The notes below the pieces were generated by a model that did no database searches, was not told the DNA's origin, and was given only the letters and a program-made list of their open reading frames with translations. This document shows, one piece after another, positions 6,263 through 46,900 of a stretch of 64,000 nucleotides of DNA (positions are counted from its first letter, which is position 1; every line of letters starts with the position of its first letter). This stretch comes from Acidimicrobiaceae bacterium. GTDB taxonomy: Bacteria > Actinomycetota > Acidimicrobiia > Acidimicrobiales > Poriferisodalaceae. The stretch is taken from assembly GCA_026713105.1 (NCBI GenBank), contig JAPOPC010000072.1, positions 1 to 64,000 of the forward strand, given 5' to 3'. The position numbers and the translations under genes were made by a program.

Positions 6263-6781
6263 ATGAGCACTGTTGTCTTGGACCCCACGAACGAAGCAGC
6301 GCCTTCGCATCGCGAGCGTGTGGCCCGACCCGACAAGCTGGACGGCCTCACCGTCGGGCTGCTGGATATCAGCAAGCCCCGCGGCGACCGCTTCCTGAAT
6401 CGGCTGGAGGAGCGGCTGACCGAGCGTGGACTGCGGGTCGAGCGCTACTCAAAGCCCACGTTCACCAAGCCGGCGCCTGTCGACCTGCGCCACGAGATTG
6501 CCACCAAGTGCGACGTGGTGATCGAAGCGCTAGCCGATTGAGGCAGTTGCACGTCGTGCAGTGTGCACGACATCGCTGATCTGGAACGCCGCGGCATCCC
6601 GGCTGTCTTCGTAGCCACCGTCCAATTCATTGACGGGGCCGAGGTGCAGGGCAAGGCGCTCGGCTTCGACCCCGCGGCCGTGTGGGTGGAGCATCCCATC
6701 CAAGACCGCACCGACGATGAAATGGTCTCCATCGCCGACAAAGCCTTCGACGAGCTGATTGAACAGCTCGTAGCTGCTTGA
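6263..6781 (+). CDS. UGSC family selenoprotein, TGA at 6539-6541 read as selenocysteine
   Basis: Starting at ATG 6263, with AGGGGGA seven bases upstream, the frame reads MSTVVLDPTNEA to ALAD, meets TGA at codon 93, and continues in the same frame to a second TGA at 6779-6781. The sequence across the break is ALAD-U-GSCTSCSVHD, exactly the U-G-S-C motif that names the UGSC family, followed by a further Cys at 99. Downstream residues (IADLERRGIPAVFVATVQFIDGAEVQGKALGF) match an intact protein of 172 residues. A SECIS-like hairpin follows the TGA. The family's function is unknown; a thiol/selenol redox role is inferred. A plain gene caller would stop at 6541 or start at 6563. Confidence 0.93.
6539..6571 (+). 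promoter_or_regulatory. bacterial SECIS-like element of the UGSC selenoprotein
   Basis: After the TGA there are 11 bases, then GTCGTGCA (6553-6560), loop GTG, and TGCACGAC (6564-6571), a perfect 8-bp stem. If drawn with 7 bp, the loop is AGTGT and contains GU. The 11-base spacing from UGA to the upper stem and the GU in the loop are the known requirements for SelB recognition in bacteria. The element lies inside the coding sequence, as bacterial SECIS elements do. Confidence 0.8.
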
Positions 6782-34732: not shown

Positions 34733-35671
34733 TCAGGCGGCCGGGGAAACCAGCTCGGCAAATGGGGACAGCTCGGTGTTGAGCAGCTCAACTCCGCCTT
34801 CGGGCAGTACCGAGACTTCGTGCCACAGGCGCAGCTTGGGCGGGCGGCCGAGGAGCTGGACCGTCGAGAGGAACGAGTGGAAGATCGCCAGGTGCGTGGA
34901 GTGCGAACGCGACCACGCCTCGAGCGACTCCAAGTCTTCGAACCAACCCACGAAGCTGGTCGACTCCAAGTCTTCGCCGTCAATGGTCTGCTCCCGCAGG
35001 AAGCGGCTGGAGATGCAGCCGGTGTCAGGGTTGCGGGCTAGGAAGTCGATGCCAGCCCGCAGCTTCGGCTCGATGTCGGTGAAGTACATCTCCCGCTCGT
35101 CGTCGAGGCATTCGTCCCATTTCTGACCCGACCGGATGAGGCACAAGTTGGCCGGCAGCGGCGACCCCGGCGCCGCCTCGAAGGGATCCTCAGCACTGGC
35201 CGCCATGCGATCGCGTGCGGCGCCCCAGTAGTCGTGCAGCTCGGTGAGATCCACCGAGGTCAGGTTGCGCACGCCCGGCAGCGGTCGCTTCGTCCCCGCA
35301 ATCGTCTCCCAGCGCTCTGCGGGGATGATCGCCGTCTCGCAGTAGACACCCGGTCGGTCGAGCGTTTCGCAGCCGTCGCGCCAGCGCTCGTAGACCGCCG
35401 GGTCCACCCAGTAGGCCATGAAGACTGTCTCGATGTCGCCTTGGGCCTCCGCGGCGTCGTCGCCCTCGTCGGTGAAGTTGACGATCCGGGCACGCTCGAG
35501 GTGGTCAGGTCGATCTTCGTCATCGGTCAGCGCCGCGTGCAGCTCGGCCAATGTCTCCGCGTTGCCGGGCCCCTTCGAGAAGATCATCGAATAAGCCGTC
35601 AGCTCAGGAAAATCGACGACGCACCACGCGGGAGCACTCGGCGTGTGCCCCTCGGGCCGGTTCGCTGCCAT
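34733..35671 (-). CDS. aldoxime dehydratase (phenylacetaldoxime dehydratase family, haem enzyme)
   Basis: This 312-residue protein matches the haem-containing dehydratase family that turns aldoximes into nitriles. Compared with the known aldoxime dehydratases, it keeps the axial haem His (H260 in SHSTHLAIF), the catalytic His (H284 in RLWHEVSVL), the Arg in NLCLIRSGQKW (R180) and the Ser in GCISSRF (S221). The spacing of HDYWGAARDR and LDDEREMYFTDIEPKL also fits. It starts 49 bases after the indolepyruvate oxidoreductase stop on the same strand, so both may be cotranscribed. No nitrilase or nitrile hydratase is in the window. Confidence 0.88.
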   Translation of the reverse strand: MAANRPEGHTPSAPAWCVVDFPELTAYSMIFSKGPGNAETLAELHAALTDDEDRPDHLERARIVNFTDEGDDAAEAQGDIETVFMAYWVDPAVYERWRDGCETLDRPGVYCETAIIPAERWETIAGTKRPLPGVRNLTSVDLTELHDYWGAARDRMAASAEDPFEAAPGSPLPANLCLIRSGQKWDECLDDEREMYFTDIEPKLRAGIDFLARNPDTGCISSRFLREQTIDGEDLESTSFVGWFEDLESLEAWSRSHSTHLAIFHSFLSTVQLLGRPPKLRLWHEVSVLPEGGVELLNTELSPFAELVSPAA

Positions 35672-35719: not shown

Positions 35720-38700
35720 TCAGGCGCCGAGTTCGGCGGCGCGGGCCCGGAACTGCTCGACGTTGGCTTCCTTGATGTCCTCGTAGCCGCGGATCATGTC
35801 GGGAAGCTCGGCAATCTCGACGGCACGGGCGTACGCGGCACTGTCACCGCTCGTCAACGTGTCGAGCGCCCGGGAGATCATCCCTCGGTACTCGTCGATC
35901 AGCTCCCGCTCCATCTTGCGATGAGCGGTCTTGCCGAAGATGTCGAGCGCCCCGCCGCGCAGGCCCTTCATCCGCGCCAGGAGGGCGAACGCAACGTCAC
36001 CTGACCGGCCGAGGCCGATCTTCTTCTCGACGCCCATGCGCCGCATGATCGGCGGGTGCAGCTTATAGGTGACCTCGGTCTTGTCGCCGAACTGGTCGCG
36101 CACTGCCTGCTGGAAGGACTTGTTGCGATGCAGGCGGGCAACTTCGTACTCGTCCTTGTACGCCATCAGCTTGTGCAGGTACCGGGCCACGGTCTCGCTG
36201 AGCGCTGTGTCGCCGCCCGCAGCAGCCTCGGCCTCGCGCACCTCGGCCACGAACTCGGCATAGGCCGCCGCGTAGTCGACGCTCTGGTACCCCACCAGGT
36301 CGGGCACACGGATGCGCAGCAGCCGGGCCAGTTCCTCGGACGGATCGGAGACCGCGTCGATGAGCTTCTGCTCACGCTTCGACGGGCCACTGTCGCGCCT
36401 CACACGGCCGACACGGTCAACGTGGAGCGTCGCCATGAAGTCTGGGTCGAGCACGATCTTGCGGCCGATGCGGAACGCCTGGGTGTTCATCTCGACGGCA
36501 ACGCCGTTGAGCTCGATGGCCCGCTCGATCGCCGAAGCGCTGATGGGCACCACGCCCGACTGGTAGGCGGCGCCGAGCACCAGCACGTTGGCCGGCATGT
36601 GCGAACGGAACAGGTTGTCCGACAGCGTGCCTGCATCAAAGTAGATATTGCGCTCGGGCGTGGTGGCATCGTCGATGGAACGCTGGAACTCGGTCCACTC
36701 CGGGAACTCCGCTGAGGTGTCGCGCACCATCGCGCTGGTCGGCACCTTCGACGAGGACACCAGCGCAACCGTGCGGCCAGCCTGCGCCTTTTCGAGGTTG
36801 ACCGGGTTGGTGCCCGACAGCAGGTCGAACACGATGTAGGCATCGGCCTCACCGGTCCCGACTTTGTTGGCCGCTCCCGCATCACCGCCGTCATGACCGT
36901 TGGCGTCGGGAGTGCTGCCGAGGCGACGGATCTTCAGGTTCGACACCACCGGGCCGCCCTTTTGGGCAAGCCCCGTCTGGTCGAGCCCGTTGGCCTGCTT
37001 GCCGTCGAGCAGCGCCGCAGTGGCGAGCATCTGGTTGACGGTCACCACGCCGGTGCCGCCGATGCCCATCATCAGCACGTTGCCCTCGTCAAGCCGATCC
37101 GGCTCGGGCAAGTCGTCGCCGATCTCGTCCACGGCTGCGGTTGCCTTCGTGGGCACCTTGCCGCCGGGCACCACCTCGATGAACGCCGGGCAGTCGCCGT
37201 CAAGGCAGGTGAAGTCTTTGTTGCACGAGGACTGGTGAATCTGGGTCTTGCGGCCGAACTCGGTCTCGATCGGCTGCACGCTGAGGCAGCTCGACTTCTC
37301 GCCGCAATCGCCGCAGCCTTCACAGACCGCCTCGTTGATGAACACCCGCGTCTTGGGCTCGGCCACCTTGCCGCGCTTGCGGTCGCGGCGGAGCTCGGCC
37401 GCGCACGCCTGGTCGTAGATGAGCACGGTGCAGCCCTCGATGTCACGCAGCACCCGCTGCGCTTCGTCGAGACGGTCACGGTGCCAGACGTCGGTGTCGG
37501 GCGCGAACTGCGCGTCTGAGGGGTACTTGGAGGGATCGTCGGCAACGACCATCACCTTGGCCACACCCTCGGCATGCAGGGAACGAGTCAGCTCCGGCAC
37601 CTCCATGCCGCCGTCCACGTCTTGGCCGCCCGTCATGGCGACCGCTGCGTTGTAGAGGATCTTGTAGGTGACGTTGGTGCCTGCCGCTATGGCCTGGCGC
37701 ACGGCCAGCGAGCCAGAGTGGTGGAACGTGCCGTCGCCGATGTTCTGGAAGCGGTGATCCATCGTCACGAACGGCGCTGCACCGACCCACTGAACGCCCT
37801 CGCCGCCCATCTGAGTGGTGCCGCGGACGTTGCGGGTGGGCGTCATGGCTGCCATGCCGTGGCAGCCGATGCCGCCGCCGGCCTCGGAGCCCTCAGGAAC
37901 CCACGTCGAGCGATTGTGCGGGCAGCCCGAGCAGAAGCCCGGGGTGCGGCCTGCGGCCTTGGCCCCGTCTTTGGTGGTCACCGCGAGCGGGATCGTGATG
38001 CGCTCGGGCACTGCAGGGCCGATGCCGTCGCCGCCGAAACGGTCCACGAGGAACGGGCGGATCTTGCGGGCGATGAGATCAGCGTCCATCTCGCCATGGC
38101 CGGGGAACCAGAAGCCGTCGGAGGCGTCGCGCTTGCCCAGGATGCGCGGGGCATCGGGCGTGCCGTAGAGGATCTCGCGCGCCAGCGTCTCGATGACCGA
38201 GCGCTTCTCCTCGACCACGACGATCACGTCGAGCCCGCGGGCGAACTCGCGCAGGCTGGTGGGCTCGAGGGGCCACACCACTGTCGGCTTGAAGATGCGG
38301 ATGCCGCGGCGAGACAGCTCTGCCTCGCTGAGACCCATGCGGTCGAGCGCCTCGCGCAGGTCGTAGTAGGTCTTGCCGGCCGCGACCAAGCCCACCTTGG
38401 CGTCGGGGCTGGTGACGGTCTGGCGGTTGAGCTTGTTCTGCGCCACGAACTTGTCGACTGCAACCATGCGGCCCTCATGGATCTCGAGTTCCATGCGCAC
38501 AGCATTGGGGCCGAACAAGGCGTCTTGCTGGGTGTGTGCCCAGGGCTTGCCTTCCCATTCGAAGGCAGGGCGCGTGGCACTCACCCGTCCTGGGCCGACT
38601 TCGACGGTCGAGTAGCCGTCGGCCACATTGGTGACGATCTTCAGCGCCGACCAGAAGCCCGAGTAACGGGACAGCTCGTAGCCCCAGCGGCCGTAGTCGA

Positions 38701-39238
38701 TGACTTCCTGGACCGAGCCGGGGTACAGGATCGGCGTCTGGAAGTGAATGAGCACCGGCTCGGACTCCGACGCCAGCGTGGACGACTTGGAGGCCGGGTC
38801 GTCGCCCGCTACGAGCAGCACGCCGCCCTTGGGATCGACGCCGCAGACATTCGCATGCTTGATGGCGTCGCCAGAGCGGTCTACTCCGGGCGCCTTGCCG
38901 TACCACATGCCCAGCACGCCGTCGTAGATGCCTTGGAAGTTGCGGTTGGCGAGCTGGCTGCCCCACACGGTTGTTGCGCCGAGATCCTCGTTGAGCCCGG
39001 GCACGAAGCTGATGTTGTTCTGCTTCAGCTCCTCGGCATTGCCGGTCATCAGCGCGTCGATGCCGCCCAGCGGCGAGCCGCGGTATCCCGACACCATCGC
39101 CGCGTTGTTGAACCCGTCTCGGCGGTCGGCGCGCAACTGGTCGAGCAGCACCCGCAGCAGGGCCTGCACACCTGACATTGCGACATCGCCTTCGGCGCGG
39201 TCGAAGCGGTCCTCGAGCTTGAAGTCTGCGAGTGCCAT
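35720..39238 (-). CDS. indolepyruvate ferredoxin oxidoreductase, fused subunits
   Basis: This protein of 1172 residues starts at ATG 39238, preceded by AGGGGGA; an ATG eight codons earlier is less well placed. It fuses the thiamine-diphosphate and 2-oxoacid-oxidising parts: SGYRGSPLGGIDALM at the N-terminus, the ThDP-binding region around GIGCHGMAAMTPTRNVRGTTQMGGEG, a Cys cluster ACEGCGDCGEKSSC plus CNKDFTCLDGDC for iron-sulfur binding, and the gamma domain GIGGTGVVTVNQMLATAALLDGK. It converts aryl or branched 2-oxoacids to acyl-CoA with ferredoxin as acceptor, in amino acid breakdown. Confidence 0.92.
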   Translation of the reverse strand: MALADFKLEDRFDRAEGDVAMSGVQALLRVLLDQLRADRRDGFNNAAMVSGYRGSPLGGIDALMTGNAEELKQNNISFVPGLNEDLGATTVWGSQLANRNFQGIYDGVLGMWYGKAPGVDRSGDAIKHANVCGVDPKGGVLLVAGDDPASKSSTLASESEPVLIHFQTPILYPGSVQEVIDYGRWGYELSRYSGFWSALKIVTNVADGYSTVEVGPGRVSATRPAFEWEGKPWAHTQQDALFGPNAVRMELEIHEGRMVAVDKFVAQNKLNRQTVTSPDAKVGLVAAGKTYYDLREALDRMGLSEAELSRRGIRIFKPTVVWPLEPTSLREFARGLDVIVVVEEKRSVIETLAREILYGTPDAPRILGKRDASDGFWFPGHGEMDADLIARKIRPFLVDRFGGDGIGPAVPERITIPLAVTTKDGAKAAGRTPGFCSGCPHNRSTWVPEGSEAGGGIGCHGMAAMTPTRNVRGTTQMGGEGVQWVGAAPFVTMDHRFQNIGDGTFHHSGSLAVRQAIAAGTNVTYKILYNAAVAMTGGQDVDGGMEVPELTRSLHAEGVAKVMVVADDPSKYPSDAQFAPDTDVWHRDRLDEAQRVLRDIEGCTVLIYDQACAAELRRDRKRGKVAEPKTRVFINEAVCEGCGDCGEKSSCLSVQPIETEFGRKTQIHQSSCNKDFTCLDGDCPAFIEVVPGGKVPTKATAAVDEIGDDLPEPDRLDEGNVLMMGIGGTGVVTVNQMLATAALLDGKQANGLDQTGLAQKGGPVVSNLKIRRLGSTPDANGHDGGDAGAANKVGTGEADAYIVFDLLSGTNPVNLEKAQAGRTVALVSSSKVPTSAMVRDTSAEFPEWTEFQRSIDDATTPERNIYFDAGTLSDNLFRSHMPANVLVLGAAYQSGVVPISASAIERAIELNGVAVEMNTQAFRIGRKIVLDPDFMATLHVDRVGRVRRDSGPSKREQKLIDAVSDPSEELARLLRIRVPDLVGYQSVDYAAAYAEFVAEVREAEAAAGGDTALSETVARYLHKLMAYKDEYEVARLHRNKSFQQAVRDQFGDKTEVTYKLHPPIMRRMGVEKKIGLGRSGDVAFALLARMKGLRGGALDIFGKTAHRKMERELIDEYRGMISRALDTLTSGDSAAYARAVEIAELPDMIRGYEDIKEANVEQFRARAAELGA

Positions 39239-39400
39239 CGAATCCCCCTGATCCGCCGTCATGGCTTCCTGCGGAGGCTACCCGTCAGCCCAAAAGCCTG
39301 CCCGGGAGGTGAGGGCGCCGGAGGCCGGGGCCCGAGCAGCCCGTGAGCGACAGCGAACAAGAGCGGGAAGCATGAGGCGTTGCGACGGCTCGCTGATTGA

Positions 39401-40702
39401 TCAGCGCTTCGGCAGCAAGACCGGGCGCGGGAGCGTGAAGGCCAAGCCGAGCGCGCAGGCATTCGAGGCGGCAGCCATGGAGAACGTCCAGCCGTAGCCG
39501 CCGGTGGTGCCGAGCAGCAGCTGAGCGACGTAGGGGCCCACGGCGGCGAACGATCCGGCTGTCGCGAAGAAGCGTCCCACGATCGCGCCGGCGTTGGTGC
39601 GGCCGAAGTAGTCGGCGACCAGTGCCGGGAACACCGCCACGCTGCCGCCGTAGGACAGGCCGAACGCGATTGACGAGGCATAGAGCAGCACCAGCCCGTC
39701 GGACACCGCGATGCCGACGAAGGAGAACGTCTCCACTGCCAATGCCAGCATCACGGCGCGGCGACGGTCGATGCGGTCCGACAGCGGGCCGGTCACGATG
39801 CGCCCGACCAGCCCGCCGATGCCGATGGAGCTGATGACGCCTGCCGACCACAGCGGTGAGAAGCCGAGGCTTCGGGCGTACTGAACGCCATGCGCGAAGG
39901 GCACGAACACCACGACGAACGTCAGGGCGAACATGCCGAAGATGCGCCAGAACACCGAATTGCGCCACGCTTGGGCAGCGGTCCATGCAGTTGCGGGATT
40001 CTCGCCGTCCGGTTCGCTCGTGCGTTCGGCGTCCACGACGAATGCAGTCGGCTGGGATGCGACCCGCGACCGCCTGAGCGGGCGCCCGGCAGGATCGGGC
40101 GTGCGCCCATCGGGCCGCTGACCGATCGACTCGGGGTCGCGCACGAACACCATCGCGGTCGCCGCCATGAGCACGCCGCCCACCACCGCCATCACCGCGA
40201 TGGCGGTCCGCCATCCGTATTGGGAGACGAGCCAGGCGGCGATCGGCGGCGCAACGATCCCTCCTGCGCTCCCGCCAGAGCCGACGATGCCGGTCGCCAG
40301 CCCACGCCGGTCGGTGAACCAGCGCACGACGGTGGCGTTCGCAGGCACCCACGACGACGACATCCCGAGGGGGGCGATCACCGCAAGACCGATGAACACC
40401 ACGGCCAGGCTCCCTGCGGCTGACAGCACCAGGTAACCCGCTGCGAGCAGCGCCGCGCCCAAGGCAATGACCTTGCGCGGGCCGAACCGGTCGGTGAGCT
40501 GCCCCGTGAAGGCGCTGGCGGCGCTGTAGGCGAGGATGTAGGAGGCATACGCCAGCTGCAGCCACGTTGCCGACCAGCCCTTGTCTGCGCTGATGGCCCC
40601 CTCGAAGGTGCCGTAGCTGAACTGGATGCCGTAGACGATGAACAGCACCCAGAAGCCGGCCCACGCCACGCGCCAGCCGTGGAACGGCTGGCCGATCAGC
40701 AT
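39401..40702 (-). CDS. MFS transporter, oxalate/formate antiporter-like
   Basis: This protein of 433 residues from ATG 40702 (MLIGQPFHGWRVAWAGFWVLFIVYG) has twelve hydrophobic segments in two halves with a hydrophilic middle loop of about 50 residues. TDRFGPRKVIALGAALLAAGY is the MFS loop motif and GLSYGGSVAVFPALVADYFG resembles the oxalate:formate antiporter subfamily, which carries monocarboxylates. The ORF extends further upstream, but that part is Arg-rich and unlike the family. It lies between a selenoprotein gene and the 2-oxoacid oxidoreductase on one strand, so it may carry a carboxylic acid used by these enzymes (inference). Confidence 0.85.
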   Translation of the reverse strand: MLIGQPFHGWRVAWAGFWVLFIVYGIQFSYGTFEGAISADKGWSATWLQLAYASYILAYSAASAFTGQLTDRFGPRKVIALGAALLAAGYLVLSAAGSLAVVFIGLAVIAPLGMSSSWVPANATVVRWFTDRRGLATGIVGSGGSAGGIVAPPIAAWLVSQYGWRTAIAVMAVVGGVLMAATAMVFVRDPESIGQRPDGRTPDPAGRPLRRSRVASQPTAFVVDAERTSEPDGENPATAWTAAQAWRNSVFWRIFGMFALTFVVVFVPFAHGVQYARSLGFSPLWSAGVISSIGIGGLVGRIVTGPLSDRIDRRRAVMLALAVETFSFVGIAVSDGLVLLYASSIAFGLSYGGSVAVFPALVADYFGRTNAGAIVGRFFATAGSFAAVGPYVAQLLLGTTGGYGWTFSMAAASNACALGLAFTLPRPVLLPKR

Positions 40703-40860
40703 GCGTCGACCGGGGCGTGGACAGCCATCGCAGCTGCGCCAGCCGCGCACCGGCGCGACGCCAAGCATGCCGCTGCGTCAGACGGTGGGGCGGCAGGCGA
40801 AGTCACGGGGAAGGCTCTGGGGTGATACGAGCGCCGCAGCGGTCGGCTGCGGTCACATCG

Positions 40861-42006
40861 CTACATGTCGCCGGGCGTGATGTAGAACCAGATGGGGTGC
40901 TTCTCGCCGGCATCGGCCATGGACTTGCGGGCAGCCAGGATGGCGCGGCCGGCTTCCGTCGAGGTGAAGAACCACCGGGCGCCGGCCCACGCGGCGGGTG
41001 CGTGCTCGGCGAGTGCCAGTGCAGCCGTCTCGTAGTAGCCGCGGATGTCCTGGGCCACACGCGCGGGAATGCCCGGAATGCCGGCTTCCTTCCATGGGGT
41101 GCCCTCGGCAACATTGATGAACGACTGCACCGCTGCGGGAATGTCGTCCGCGCTGACGGTGCGGCCTGCGCCTGTCCTGTTGCCGAGCTTGGCCACTGCC
41201 CGGTCGTAGGCGGGCCGCAGTCCGTTGGCCTCGTCCACGGCGGGGTGCAGGCTGGGATCGTGACGCGGAGGCAGCTCGCACGACATGGTCTCGGTGCCGT
41301 CGTCGGTGATGGACTCGGCGAACTTCTCCACGACCGGTTCGGGCGAGCGCAGCAGCCCGAAGGCGTGGGCGAGGACCCGATGCTGGAAATCGGCGTCGTT
41401 GGGCTTGCCGAGCGGGCGGCCCAGCGGGAATTCGCACCAGAGCCCCCGGGGCGGGGCCGTGCCCTGGATGTGGGCGCCGATGGAGCCCAGCGCCACCGTG
41501 GCGATTCCGGCTTCCTCGAAGACGTGGGCGAGCGTACTCACGGTACGCGTGCACAACGGTCAGACAGGGGTGAACAGAGCGACGTCCACCTCCTGGTCGC
41601 GGAGGAACTTTGCGCCCGCAGGCCCGGAGTCCATCCGGACTGCCGAGAGGTCGAACTGGTTGCCCGCATAGGACAGGTGGATGTCGGAAACCTTGCCGAT
41701 CGTGCCGTCGGCTGCGAGCTCATCGAGACGGTCGATCGGGAACACCGTGTTGAGGTCGAGCGCGATGCCGGTGGCGTCGAAGTTAGGGCTCCAGTGGCCG
41801 CACATGTAGTCGCGGCGGCTGCCGTCGAGCACGCGGTAGCCGGTGTCCATCGGTGCGAAATCGTCCTGGTCGGGATGGTGCAGCGAGGCGGAGGTCACGA
41901 TCGCGACCGTGGCCTCGGCCAACGGTGGGGGCGTCGCGAACGCAGTTGTCTCGAAGTCGGGCATCTCGAGCCCGCCGGTCAGTGCCTTGACATCGGAATC
42001 GGCCAT
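40861..42006 (-). CDS. GrdB/PrdB-family selenoprotein, TGA at 41562-41560 read as selenocysteine
   Basis: Two adjacent frames (42006-41560 and 41556-40861) are one gene. From ATG 42006 the frame reads MADSDVKALTGG to VDVALFTPV, meets TGA at codon 149, and continues in the same frame PLCTRTVSTLAHVFEEAGIATVALGSIG. The junction V-U-PLC gives a U-x-x-C redox motif (Sec149, Cys152), as in the selenoprotein B family of glycine/betaine/sarcosine/proline reductases, where Cys-containing relatives read VCPLCTRT. The full length is 381 residues. A SECIS-like hairpin follows. The substrate is unknown; it is unlikely to be a full glycine reductase because GrdA and GrdC/D genes are not seen here. Confidence 0.92.
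41532..41562 (-). promoter_or_regulatory. bacterial SECIS-like element of the GrdB/PrdB-like selenoprotein
   Basis: Reading the minus strand, TGA is followed by 11 bases and then GCGTAC (41548-41543), loop CGTGA, and GTACGC (41537-41532), a perfect 6-bp stem. The 11-base distance is the same as in the UGSC gene at 6539, and the loop again contains GU. The stem lies within coding sequence immediately after the U-x-x-C motif. Confidence 0.78.
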
Positions 42007-42163: not shown

Positions 42164-42940
42164 CTAGGCGGGTTGTTCCAGGTTGAGGGAGCGTTGGCGG
42201 AGGCGGCGCATTCCTCGGAGCCAGCGGTCTGGGTCGGAGGCTTTGCGTTCTACGTAGGTCTGGGCCTCTGGGTGGGACAGGATGAGGAATCGCTCTTCGG
42301 CCATGGCCTCGGTGATGACTTCGGCAACGAATTCGGGTTCGACGATGCCGTCGGTACCGCCGTCGGCGAGTCGCTGCGGGGCCATGGCCGTGTTGACGCC
42401 TTGGGGGCACAGCACCGACACGCGGATGCCGTCGTCGCCGTGGAGAATTGCTTCCATCTCGGCCAGCTTGATGCAGGCAGCCTTGGTGACCGAGTACGGC
42501 GCCGAGCCCATCGCAGCCAGCAAACCGGCTGCGCTGGCGGTGTGGACCAGGTAGCCCTCGCCTCGGGCAAGCATCGAGGGCAGCACTGCACGAGCTGCGT
42601 ACACGTGGCTCATGACGTGCAGCTCCCACTGGGACTGCCATGCGTCGTTTGACGCGACCACCCCGCCTTCGGCACCAGCGCCTGCATTGGAGAAGAACAC
42701 GTCGATCGGGCCGTGTGCATCGAGCGTTTGCTCTACGAGGCTTGTGACGGCGGCCTCGTCGGTGACGTCCAACCCGACGCCTTCGCAGCCGAGTTCGGCT
42801 GCCACTGCGCCAGCAGCATCAGCGTTGTAGTCGGCGACGACCACATGGCGGGCGCCCTGCGCCAGCCAATGGCGAGCGGTAGCGGAACCGATGCCGCCGC
42901 CTCCCCCGGTGATGATCGCTACTCGATCGCGCAGTTCCAT
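42164..42940 (-). CDS. SDR family oxidoreductase
   Basis: This 258-residue short-chain dehydrogenase has the cofactor loop GGGGGIGSATARHWL, the catalytic Ser in LVHTASAAG, and Y-S-V-T-K. It has an Asp after the second strand (VVADYNADAAGA), which favours NAD over NADP. GGAG lies eight bases before the ATG. The substrate is not evident. The stop codon is followed by the long inverted repeat that precedes the selenoprotein gene. Confidence 0.87.
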   Translation of the reverse strand: MELRDRVAIITGGGGGIGSATARHWLAQGARHVVVADYNADAAGAVAAELGCEGVGLDVTDEAAVTSLVEQTLDAHGPIDVFFSNAGAGAEGGVVASNDAWQSQWELHVMSHVYAARAVLPSMLARGEGYLVHTASAAGLLAAMGSAPYSVTKAACIKLAEMEAILHGDDGIRVSVLCPQGVNTAMAPQRLADGGTDGIVEPEFVAEVITEAMAEERFLILSHPEAQTYVERKASDPDRWLRGMRRLRQRSLNLEQPA

Positions 42941-43028: not shown

Positions 43029-43943
43029 TCAGTCGGCTGCGGCTGTCGCGGGCTCTGCGGTGCCGATGCCGCCGACTTCCTCGCCGTCGTCGATGGCCTT
43101 GATCCGAGCCGCGTACGCGGTCTCGGCGAGGCGCTCGGCGCCCAGGTGCCGGCCGGGGCTGGCGCCGTCGACATGGCCCATGATCCCCCGGTACAGGCTG
43201 AACCCGCACAGGGCTGCCAGCTCTTCGGGCATGTCGCGGACGTCATCGGGCGCGAGGCTGTAGTACTGATTCTGCTGCTGACGCATCCAGCCCCGGCAGT
43301 ACTGCACGCTGATTCCCAGGCGCCAGTCGTCTTCGGAGGTGTTGGCGCCGCCACAGTGCCAGGTGCCGCCGTTCACCACCAGCACTGAGCCGGCCGGCAT
43401 CTCGGCGGCGATGTACTCGGGCTTCTCGCCCGGCTGGGGCTCGTGGTCGAAGCGATGCGAGCCGGGCACCAGGCGGGTGGCGCCGTTGGAATCGGTGAAG
43501 TCAGTGAACGCCCAGATGGTCGTGACCATGAAAGGCGGGCGGGGCCGCGGCACGTCGATCTGATCCACGAGGCCGTCGTCGGAGTGCAGGCCCTGGTGCA
43601 CCTCGCCGGGGCCGATGTGCATGCACGTGGTGCCCGACAGGATCGCCCCCGGCTCCATCAGCTTCTGCGGGAACGGCAGCACATTGCGGTGGATCGGCAG
43701 CTTCCAGAACGAGCGGTCCTTGTGCAGCAGGTTGTACATGCGCTTGGTGGCGAACCCCTCGATGCGGTTTCCCTTCGGTTCGACGTTCAGCTCGTCTTCG
43801 ACCCGCGCGACGGTCTCGCGGATCTCGCTGACCAATGCAGGTTCGATGGCGTTCTCGACGATGCAGTAGCCGTTCTCTTCCACTTCGTCGAGATAGCGCT
43901 GAAGCTCAGTTTCGTTCGCCGTGAGGTCCAAGGTTCCGCTCAT
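43029..43943 (-). CDS. phytanoyl-CoA dioxygenase (PhyH) family protein
   Basis: This 304-residue non-haem iron, 2-oxoglutarate-dependent oxygenase shows the H-x-D pair in QGLHSDDGLVDQ, the distal His in VVNGGTWHCGGAN, and the Arg that binds 2-oxoglutarate in DDWRLGISVQY. NGATRLVPGSHRFD is the typical PhyH strand. Members hydroxylate varied small molecules, so the name does not fix the substrate. It lies between an SDR and a glycosyltransferase, all on one strand, but with gaps that do not prove an operon. Confidence 0.87.
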   Translation of the reverse strand: MSGTLDLTANETELQRYLDEVEENGYCIVENAIEPALVSEIRETVARVEDELNVEPKGNRIEGFATKRMYNLLHKDRSFWKLPIHRNVLPFPQKLMEPGAILSGTTCMHIGPGEVHQGLHSDDGLVDQIDVPRPRPPFMVTTIWAFTDFTDSNGATRLVPGSHRFDHEPQPGEKPEYIAAEMPAGSVLVVNGGTWHCGGANTSEDDWRLGISVQYCRGWMRQQQNQYYSLAPDDVRDMPEELAALCGFSLYRGIMGHVDGASPGRHLGAERLAETAYAARIKAIDDGEEVGGIGTAEPATAAAD

Positions 43944-43970: not shown

Positions 43971-46900
43971 TCAGGCCTCTTCGACACCGGCGAAGCGCAG
44001 GTCGCAGCCGTCGCGCACCTCGCTGGCCCGTCCCAGGAAGTGGCTGTCCTCGACGTTCCAGGTGTGCTCGTCGCCGTGGCGCACTCGCAGGTAGCCGGCG
44101 CCGTGGGTCCAGTAGATGCGACCGCCGGCCAGCGTGACGTCGTGGGCCAGGGCGATGTCGACCCGGCGCGGCACGCGTCGCCAGCCGCCGGCGGCTTCGA
44201 GATCGTGCCTTGAGATCATGAGCACGCCGCCCGAGACCCCAACGAACGGGATGTAGCGCTCGGAGAACTTCTGGCGGTTCTGGTCGCGCACGGTCGTGTC
44301 GAGCCGTTCGAGGTACACGTACTCGGCGGACTTGCCGATCAGCTCGGCGCCGGAGTACTCGTGGGCGAGCACCAGGTCACCGATGTGCTCGGCGCCGTAG
44401 TAGTCGTCGTCGTCCATCTTGGTGACCAACGACCCGCCGGCCGCTTCCGCAGCAGCTCGCAGCACCCCGCCGAGAGTCTGCGCGCCGTCGACGCGGACGA
44501 TCTGCAGGGAGTGGCCGAGGTCGCCGGCCAGTGCTTGGATCTCGGGGTCACTGTCGAAGCCGTCGCCGTGCAGGGCGAGCACGAGCTCGATGCGGGGGTA
44601 GGTCTGGCGGGCGACAGTCGTGATGACATCGGCCACGCGGTCCGGCCGCCGTGTCGGGGCCAGGATCGACACTTCGGGCGGCTGAGCGCTGACACCGGTC
44701 GACGCAAGGATCTGGCGGGCCCGGCTGCGCAGCGAGTGGTCACGCAGCGCGCAGCGACGCATCTCGATGCTGAGCTGCTCGCGGCGGTGGGCGTCGGCAT
44801 CGACGACCTCGCCCGACGCCATCAGGTCGTGCAGCTCCGGCCCGAGCGTCGCTGCGAGCGCCGGATCCGGCGCGTCGATGTGCACCAGCACGCCGGCTGC
44901 GGCCAGCGCCGCCAGCGCACCTGCCCGTTCGGTGTGATGGCGATGATCGGCAGCCCGGTCGACCACGTGATGTCGGGAACGCAGCTCGCTGAGCAGCTCG
45001 CCGCCGATCTGCAGGCTGAACACCGATCCGCGTTCGGGCGACAGCACCGAGCGCAGCGCTGCGCTCTCGGGCTCGCACTCAGCGGACCAGCCGACCGGGT
45101 TGACTGCCTCTGGGTTGAAGGCCTGCACGCTGGCCCCCTCCGGCAGCTCGGCAAGCACCGCGACCACCGGCGGACGTTCGAGCGTGCTGGTGCGCAGAGC
45201 CGCCTGCGCCACGCGGTCCGAGTCAGCCAGCAGCACGTCGACGTGGTGGTCGCCGCCGTCGCCGACGTGAGGCGCCACTCGGGTGGAGGCGGCGAGCACC
45301 GAAGACGCGGTACGACCGGCTGCCGAGAAGTTGGCGCCGAGCGGGTAGCGCGCCAGGCGTTGGACGTAGCGCTGACTGCGGGCCTGCAGTCCCAGCCAGA
45401 TCCTGATCGCCTTGCGCGCGCGACGGGGCCATTGCCTGCGCACGCGACGCAGCGTGAAACGCAGCCGGCGAACTCGCCAGCGGATGCCGCGTCCAATCCA
45501 GCGAAGGTTCCGCAGCCGCCAGCCGACGGCGCGAAGCACGGTGCCGACGAAAGAGGCGAAATCCTTCGGGTGGCGAATTCGACGCAGTCCGGCGCCCAGC
45601 GTCGCCAGGTGCCGGCGCGTTCGGGCCCACAGCCGCAGGAATCGCCTGGCGGGACCGTGCAGCTTGCCGGCAAGCCAGCCCTGGGGCTTGGCCTCTTGAG
45701 TGACGAGGAGGCTGTCGACGTCCAGTTCGATGACAGTGCCAAATTCGGCCACTGTGCGGCCCGAGCGGCGGGCACGGTGGATGGCCCAGCCGCGGGTGAT
45801 GCCGACCCGGTGACCTGAGGCCAGGTCCGACTCGCCGGCGGCCGCGGTGCCGAGCTGGTTCTGGAGACGGCCGAGCATCCGGGGGCGGACCTGGGCGCCA
45901 GCAGGCACCCGCACGTGAAAGGCCGCTGCGGGGTGTGCGAGGGCTGCACCGCCGGCATCGCCCACGCTGACGCGCGGGTCGGGGTCGAGCAGGCGGCGGA
46001 GCCGTTCGAACGCCTCGCCGGGCCGCTCGTCGACCCACACGACCAGGTCGTGGATGTCGCTTGCCAGCACCTGTTCGACGGTGTCCAGCACGTCGGTTTC
46101 GTCGTTGTGCCCGGGCTCGACCGTCACCACGAACTGCGGGATTGTGTAGGAGCGGCCCGGGGGTGAGGTGCGCAGCCGACGGTCTGGGATGAGGTGCGAG
46201 AGCTTGTCGCGCTGCTGGGTGAGACTGATCGTTTCATCCTCGCTGAGCACCGCTCCAGCGCCTTGGTGCCAGCACAGAGCAGCGCGTTCGGGCACCAGCA
46301 CCGCCCCCAACGCGTAAGCACGCCAGCCGAACTCGATGTCCTCCGAGCCCCATTGCGTGAACGACTCGTCGAAGCTCCCTGCGGACTCAAAGAGCTTCTT
46401 CGACACCGCGAAGTTGCCGCCGGTGACCACCCGGAACACGTCGTCGGCATCCGAGGCGAGGTCGTCGGTCACCTCCATCCGGCGCTCGATCCACTCGGGG
46501 TGCTGAATCGGCCGACCGGAGAAGAGATCGGCGAGCGTGCCGGGCCGGTCGCGCACGTCGGGCGCCCCGATGCCGTCCACTTCGACGTGGCGGCGGAATC
46601 CCAGCGTGAGCAAGTCGCTGGCGGCGTGGTGCCAGTGGGCGTGGGCGGCGAGCCAATCGGCCTCGGGGACCATGTCGCAGTCGAGGAAGACCAGCACATC
46701 GCCCTGCGCGGCACGGGCGCCGTTGTTGCGAGCCCGTGCCAGGCCGAAGCCGAGATCTTCCTGGTGGACCACTCGCAGGCTCAACCGGCTCGGACCCGCT
46801 GCGTCGGGGGCTCGAAGCTCAAGCGCAGCCAAGTCGAGGGGCGGATCGGACCCGTCATCCACCACGATGACCTCGAAGAGGTCCAGGGGGTAGGTCTGGC

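Follow-up and report, generated by a model that had tools for sequence, protein, structure and literature searches.

PrdB and GrdB carry out chemistry that has been described from anaerobic fermentation. For D-proline reductase, the putative mechanism has the substrate bound as a pyruvoyl adduct and the selenocysteine (Sec) located on a different protein; the selenoether is then attacked by a cysteine thiolate. The review stresses, in the excerpts available, that these steps are hypothetical (PMC10298544). PrdB-type selenoproteins have long been known from marine metagenomes, where they are labelled proline reductase. According to the available parts of these reports, the proline reductase PrdB ranked third in abundance among the known families of the Sargasso Sea set, with 42 genes (PMC1088965), 235 PrdB sequences came from Global Ocean Sampling (PMC2398784), and "proline reductase" made up 6.4% of marine selenoprotein genes (PMC9402790). 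The excerpts of the first two reports speak of proline reductase and are silent on a missing partner (PMC1088965, PMC2398784). An inventory of 119 families from 2026 has, in the portion at hand, one row for D-proline reductase (TIGR04483) and one for GrdB (PMC13188914), and the accessible parts of four further papers add no partner test (PMC12013277, PMC5029168, PMC9312934, PMC1794560). Here we describe a PrdB-like gene with an in-frame TGA in a stretch of 64,000 nucleotides from an Acidimicrobiaceae bacterium (assembly GCA_026713105.1, contig JAPOPC010000072.1, positions 1 to 64,000; hereafter the window). The gene and its close relatives are called subfamily A; no description of this subfamily or of the missing partner was found in the literature covered, which consisted of open-licence papers.

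The in-frame TGA and its downstream hairpin

The features of the gene are as follows.

40861 to 42006, minus strand: PrdB-like gene of subfamily A, predicted selenoprotein of 381 amino acids with Sec at residue 149
41560 to 41562, minus strand: in-frame TGA, putatively read as selenocysteine, the first residue of U-x-x-C
41532 to 41548, minus strand: hairpin of the selenocysteine insertion sequence (SECIS) type, 6-bp stem GCGTAC/GTACGC and 5-nt loop CGTGA, 12 to 28 nt after the TGA
41344 to 41925, minus strand: PrdB-like core, residues 28-221, from the TIGR04483 match (28-216) and the structure model, with Sec149 just before helix 152-165
40912 to 41244, minus strand: C-terminal all-helical part, residues 255-365, from the structure model; without a Pfam match and conserved in A1 and A2

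The open reading frames 42006-41560 and 41556-40861 on the minus strand share one phase, and translation across the junction yields 381 residues, interrupted by one TGA only (codon 149) and terminated by TAG. This agrees with a sequence-only reading of the locus, which had taken the two frames for one gene split by TGA; it had counted two codons between the TGA and the second frame, and there is actually one (CCG) before the TTG start at 41556. The motif around codon 149 reads TPV-U-PLC-TRTVSTLAH. To follow the codon we used overlapping sets: 30 copies fetched by locus from related genomes, and the best 80 of 251 relatives among 255 stretches matched in a contig scan of the genome collection. 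TGA stands at aligned codon 149 in 30/30 of the fetched copies, the own one included, and in 80/80 scan loci (78 by pattern and two with an N in the motif). None of the fetched copies ended at residue 148 as a complete protein. The protein was matched in 43 of 61 genomes (the own genome and 60 relatives), one of them, G045, being counted only through a canonical GrdB-like gene. A wider search within the phylum at an expectation value (E) of 1e-10 gave matches in 64 of 396 genomes, and among the 79 matches listed 72 had at least one TGA and seven had none.

Wherever the aligned residue was read and was not TGA, it was cysteine. This was the case in L159, a full-length relative with 44% identity, in the shorter L168 and L178, and in the Cys gene L187. 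Over 111 distinct U/C sites there were 107 TGA and 4 TGC codons, so that most relatives carry Sec as well and the expectation of the sequence-only reading that they would have C-x-x-C needs correction. Coding constraint continues past the TGA. Against L002 (93% identical), 88 codons were changed downstream of the TGA and 44 upstream, of which 69 and 38, respectively, were synonymous. Downstream, synonymous changes outnumbered the others in eight of nine pairs, the exception being L030 with 78 against 80.

The hairpin was compared between the window gene and the 80 loci, which together make 81 subfamily A sequences (79 distinct). All six stem pairs were kept in 70 distinct sequences and five in the other nine. 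The codons under the stem were skewed, with Arg as CGT in 74/81 and Ser as AGT in 75/81, as compared to 14% and 13% elsewhere in the same genes. For a wider comparison 170 matches over all loci were reduced to 111 distinct N-free stretches of 48 nt. The fraction of stem pairs formed was 0.98 for the 76 distinct subfamily A Sec genes and 0.92 for the 31 remaining Sec genes, which include the GrdB-like gene of G045. It was 0.62 for the four Cys genes, which kept 2, 4, 4 and 5 of the six pairs; the full-length Cys relative L159 is the one that retains 2/6. Among the 107 Sec genes the second loop base was G in 103, and both stem sides were changed in 96 cells, which count sequences and not events. 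Across all 107, pairing stood at 0.966 against a shuffle maximum of 0.812 (2000 random arm re-pairings of each kind), a comparison with two points against it: the shuffle controls ignore relatedness, and subfamily A alone varies little, with 0.982 against a shuffle maximum of 0.974. A SECIS hairpin is also spoken against by the Cys gene L168, which retains 5/6 pairs, and by a folding energy that is unexceptional (z -0.29 and -0.89), so that the SECIS claim rests on comparison. No described SECIS family applied, as Rfam returned nothing for the window at its gathering thresholds. The comparative data indicate that a covarying SECIS hairpin lies directly downstream of the TGA and that selection maintains the UGA at position 149 as a sense codon.

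The machinery for Sec is encoded in the own genome, which is 94% complete. SelB was found over its cut-off with SelA directly adjoining it, SelD was over its cut-off, and a tRNA-Sec on the contig of SelB scored 67 bits, where the gathering score is 47. A second tRNA-Sec match on another contig also passes with 48.2 bits and may be another long-armed tRNA. SelA was over its cut-off in 42 of the 43 genomes that match the protein, as compared to 7 of the 18 that do not, in 20/20 further genomes chosen for Sec or Cys forms and in 17/17 genomes behind the Gammaproteobacteria and Binatia loci. Two observations fit a Sec gene less well: G037 (84% complete) has the gene and no SelA match, and genomes with the Cys form also carry SelA, so loss of the machinery does not explain the Cys forms. 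With SelA, SelB, SelD and tRNA-Sec all over cut-off, the conserved TGA and the hairpin, the data point to the window gene encoding a selenoprotein, as first proposed.

That the TGA is a nonsense mutation, a sequencing error or a reassigned codon has next to no probability. All that speaks for it is the stop codon in the window itself, and it has against it the same TGA in every one of the fetched and scanned copies, the coding constraint together with the covarying hairpin downstream and the other window genes that TGA terminates (35720-35722 and 43971-43973). Conservation and covariation rule out chance, frameshift, pseudogene and codon reassignment, which are refuted at the level of the sequence.

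Two side observations concern the machinery. The SelD gene (G000:C31:10934-11878; L195) has one in-frame TGA, and SelD is thus probably itself a selenoprotein here. A SelB frame (L047:3387-5723, minus strand) is 778 amino acids long and the SelB model starts only at residue 203, pointing to an extra N-terminal stretch or a wrong start.

Family identity, partner subunits and respiration of the carriers

The best family was PrdB (TIGR04483) with 108.1 bits and E 4.5e-31, which misses the curated equivalog cut-off of 300 bits; residues 28-216 were aligned to model positions 26-215. The Pfam family GRDB (PF07355) was barely passed, with 22.4 against a gathering cut-off of 22 and over residues 12-146 only, and TIGR01918 (glycine/betaine/sarcosine reductase selenoprotein B) reached 33.8 bits and missed its cut-off of 65.45. 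The other GrdB-type models scored lower than the PrdB model and below their own cut-offs. These scores uphold the relationship to GrdB and PrdB seen in the sequence-only reading and indicate that the protein is a distant PrdB/GrdB homologue and not a recognised D-proline or glycine reductase. With PrdB it has in common a homologous core and Sec in U-x-x-C, the motif given for PrdB in the portion of the inventory at hand (PMC13188914). It differs in its length, 381 amino acids with a helical C-terminal part against a model of 238 positions. With GrdB, GrdF and GrdH (PF07355, TIGR01918) it has Sec in U-x-x-C and weak homology to the GrdB C-terminal part in common, and unlike GrdB it has Thr155 where the same source gives a third Cys (U-x-x-C-x-x-C; PMC13188914). 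Residue 155 was Thr in 80 of the 81 subfamily A sequences and Ala in one, and none showed the U-x-x-C-x-x-C of GrdB. Kept in 81/81 were Sec149, Cys152, Cys243, Trp72, Ser73, Asp77, His110, Arg187, Arg197, Glu259, Asp320 and Arg322, and Cys191 was kept in 80/81, the remaining one being an unread X.

A structure model built from 44 sequences was confident, with a predicted local distance difference score (pLDDT) of 92.7 and a predicted template modelling score (pTM) of 0.91; an earlier model from 12 sequences was moderate (pLDDT 75.5). The model predicts an alpha/beta core, in which Sec149 follows strand 142-146 and precedes helix 152-165, and helices from residue 255 to 374. Residues 216-381 had no Pfam match even at E 10. 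Foldseek against the PDB gave no match at E 0.001 with either model. Its top matches were photocobilins and kinases, with template modelling scores by query length of at most 0.30 in the rows shown, and these may be taken as a generic alpha/beta resemblance. Sequence and profile searches of the PDB gave nothing significant (best E 0.12 and 0.17, respectively).

Subfamily A was present in Actinomycetota, Gammaproteobacteria and Binatota. A tree of the core was built from 200 columns by a quick search without bootstrap. In it, a branch with an SH-like approximate likelihood ratio test (SH-aLRT) value of 100 set apart 34 close-family rows, which carry the labels Actinomycetota, Pseudomonadota, Binatota and, in a single case, Planctomycetaceae. 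Four rows labelled A, namely L159 and three of a type of about 425 residues, fell outside this group, and the GrdB-like gene of G045 sat on a branch of 4.64 changes, so long that its placement is unsure. Bins of metagenome-assembled genomes can be contaminated, and the lone Planctomycetaceae label may be a binning error. Chromosome-level copies in Pseudomonadales and Binatia (L113, L134, L137, L138) argue for a real spread.

We searched for partner subunits across whole genomes. PF09338, which we take to be the family of GrdE and PrdA, was not found in the own genome, and among the 61 genomes it was found in two, G045 and G057. GrdA (PF04723) was likewise absent from the matches in the own genome and was found in the same two. 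Nor did PF09338 appear in any of 24 genomes chosen across phyla, the own included, a search that had no hit anywhere, has the 61-genome search as its positive control and includes 17 genomes with no completeness given. In G045 both PF09338 and GrdA lie on the same contig as the GrdB-like gene, demonstrating that the PF09338 search does find real systems. The absence of other Grd/Prd subunits, noted earlier for the surroundings of the gene, thus extends to the genome for PF09338 and GrdA; GrdC, GrdD and PrdC were not searched for. Haem-copper oxidase genes were present in 11/11 genomes tested (ten carriers and G045), supporting the aerobic capacity that had been supposed for the host. The carriers differ from PrdB systems in having haem-copper oxidases and no detected PrdA-type partner, and from GrdB systems in having no detected GrdA- or GrdE-type gene. 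As the partner proteins were not found and oxygen-respiration genes are present, the name proline reductase probably does not fit the window protein.

The locus in G045 (G045:C77:18472-23294; L192, L196) is of the canonical grd type, with PF09338, a GrdB-like gene and GrdA with a TGA. G045 is a relative of the same order as the window organism and also has haem-copper oxidases.

Proposed function and alternative explanations

We consider it fairly probable that the protein is a stand-alone Sec reductase built on the PrdB/GrdB core, in which the U-x-x-C pair would act on an electrophilic substrate. The Sec149 selenolate, placed just before a helix, would attack the electrophilic centre of a small substrate, Cys152 would then join Sec149 in a selenenylsulfide, and the pair would be reset by a cellular thiol or the thioredoxin system. 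As the genome search detected no known pyruvoyl subunit (PrdA/GrdE), we infer that activation as a pyruvoyl Schiff base, proposed for the Stickland reductases, does not take place here. The substrate would instead be reactive already, for example at a carbon-halogen, sulfonium, ammonium, disulfide or peroxide bond. The C-terminal helices would probably line the substrate pocket or replace the partner subunit. The earlier suggestion of a different substrate or role holds up as reasonable, with the substrate itself a conjecture. Several points weigh against a stand-alone reductase: its substrate and activity are putative, PF09338 covers the known GrdE and PrdA so that an unrelated partner would be missed, many of the genomes searched are incomplete, and the copies in Gammaproteobacteria and Binatia have other, varied neighbours.

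Another explanation is a general thiol redox protein acting on disulfides, sulfoxides or peroxides, with U-x-x-C used as in Sec-thioredoxin or peroxiredoxin-like proteins. We regard this as unlikely, even with U-x-x-C between a strand and a helix in the model, a gene that stands alone without a fixed partner, Cys forms in existence and carriers with haem-copper oxidases. No thioredoxin or peroxiredoxin Pfam domain was matched at E 0.001, and the (nearly) invariant residues outside the motif (the GHWSPNFD stretch, H110, R187, R197, C243, E259, D320 and R322) together with the additional conserved C-terminal part argue for one particular small substrate. A third alternative, a reductase that uses Sec on carbon-halogen or similar bonds, would be comparable to the monofluoroacetate proteins of Synergistota, which are likewise GrdB relatives with another proposed substrate and for which, in the parts of the report available, cleavage of C-F was proposed (PMC10838667). 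A selenolate without a pyruvoyl partner suits an already reactive carbon. The Synergistota system, according to the same excerpts, is that of an anaerobe and has grdB- and grdE-like genes in its operon (PMC10838667), while the grdE family was not found here and none of the scanned neighbours was recognisable as a dehalogenation gene, making a carbon-halogen reductase quite unlikely. A subunit of D-proline reductase (or of glycine, betaine or sarcosine reductase) with a partner that has diverged or lies in the unassembled part is very unlikely. It draws on the TIGR04483 alignment, the PF07355 match just over its cut-off, the kept U-x-x-C and the genome completeness, which leaves room for one missing gene. 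Against it stand a PrdB score far short of its cut-off, GrdB-type models far below theirs, the lack of GrdA in the own genome, and a PF09338 family that was found beside the GrdB-like gene of G045 and neither in the own genome nor in the 24 chosen ones; the GrdB-like gene of G045 is also set apart by its long branch of unsure placement. A true D-proline or glycine reductase was rejected as the leading explanation on the partner searches and the model scores.

The stand-alone Sec reductase may be part of something wider. Tentatively, and as a possibility that we would not yet bet on, subfamily A would belong to a widespread class of pyruvoyl-independent single-subunit selenoenzymes of aerobic bacteria in at least three phyla, which would carry out a reductive cleavage other than that of D-proline or glycine with the helical domain replacing PrdA/GrdE, and the marine "proline reductases" would largely be this class, misnamed for twenty years. 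The marine PrdB of the Sargasso Sea and Global Ocean Sampling, abundant and with U-x-x-C in the descriptions by which that set is known here, probably falls in the same broad group, and its identity with subfamily A is a guess. A Sec-dependent branch of PrdB/GrdB in marine and other bacteria with haem-copper oxidases and no detected partners would tie selenium to another reaction. Since 2005 "PrdB" has figured among the most frequent marine selenoproteins, and its name suggests that D-proline is reduced. The partner test casts straightforward doubt on this name, at least where subfamily A is concerned, and provides a defined protein to assay.

Gene neighbourhood and further selenoprotein candidates

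Neighbouring genes were clustered over the 80 loci, many of which are short, and those around the window gene are as follows.

35720 to 39262, minus strand: indolepyruvate ferredoxin oxidoreductase family protein, a neighbour in part of the family only (23/80 loci)
39401 to 40768, minus strand: major facilitator superfamily (MFS) transporter, next gene downstream; best models monocarboxylate/oxalate-formate, all below cut-offs; cluster in 27/80 loci
42164 to 42940, minus strand: short-chain dehydrogenase (SDR), upstream; SDR cluster in 27/80 loci, which may include unrelated SDRs
43029 to 43943, minus strand: PhyH-family dioxygenase, upstream; cluster in 21/80 loci

A recurrent run in a set of Acidimicrobiia consists of PhyH, SDR, an EamA transporter, the selenoprotein gene, MFS, indolepyruvate oxidoreductase and then a pair of pyridoxal phosphate (PLP) enzymes, a cystathionine beta-synthase-like protein and a cystathionine gamma-synthase (transsulfuration-type). 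The EamA cluster was found in 19/80 loci; in the window the run lacks this gene. Outside this class, a PhyH-family gene with 26-30% identity lies upstream in four gammaproteobacterial loci (L114, L116, L117, L123) and an MFS gene with 38% identity lies downstream in one Binatia locus (L115). Since the neighbours differ between phyla the context names no pathway; it is lineage-specific, and we drew neither a pathway nor a substrate from it. Nothing could be learned from the genes next to the short relatives (YchF, DUF6391). The downstream run of the window also holds a gene for a haem-containing (aldoxime) dehydratase (34733-35671, minus strand), with a cluster in 4/80 loci, close relatives only.

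Further candidate genes came up alongside. The own genome has two more PrdB-like TGA genes of other subfamilies (G000:C44:54660-55253, L049; G000:C86:6896-7474, L050), and proteins of the L050 type end in CLVCAGIDF or CLVCAGIDY (L050, L059). G112 has both Sec (TGA) and Cys versions of a short PrdB-like protein (L186, L187). In the window a second selenoprotein candidate, presumably the first selenoprotein of the sequence-only reading, lies at 6263-6781 on the plus strand with its TGA at 6539-6541; it is short, was seen as a translation and has a U-G-S-C motif that fits the "UGSC-containing" family in the portion of the inventory available (PMC13188914).
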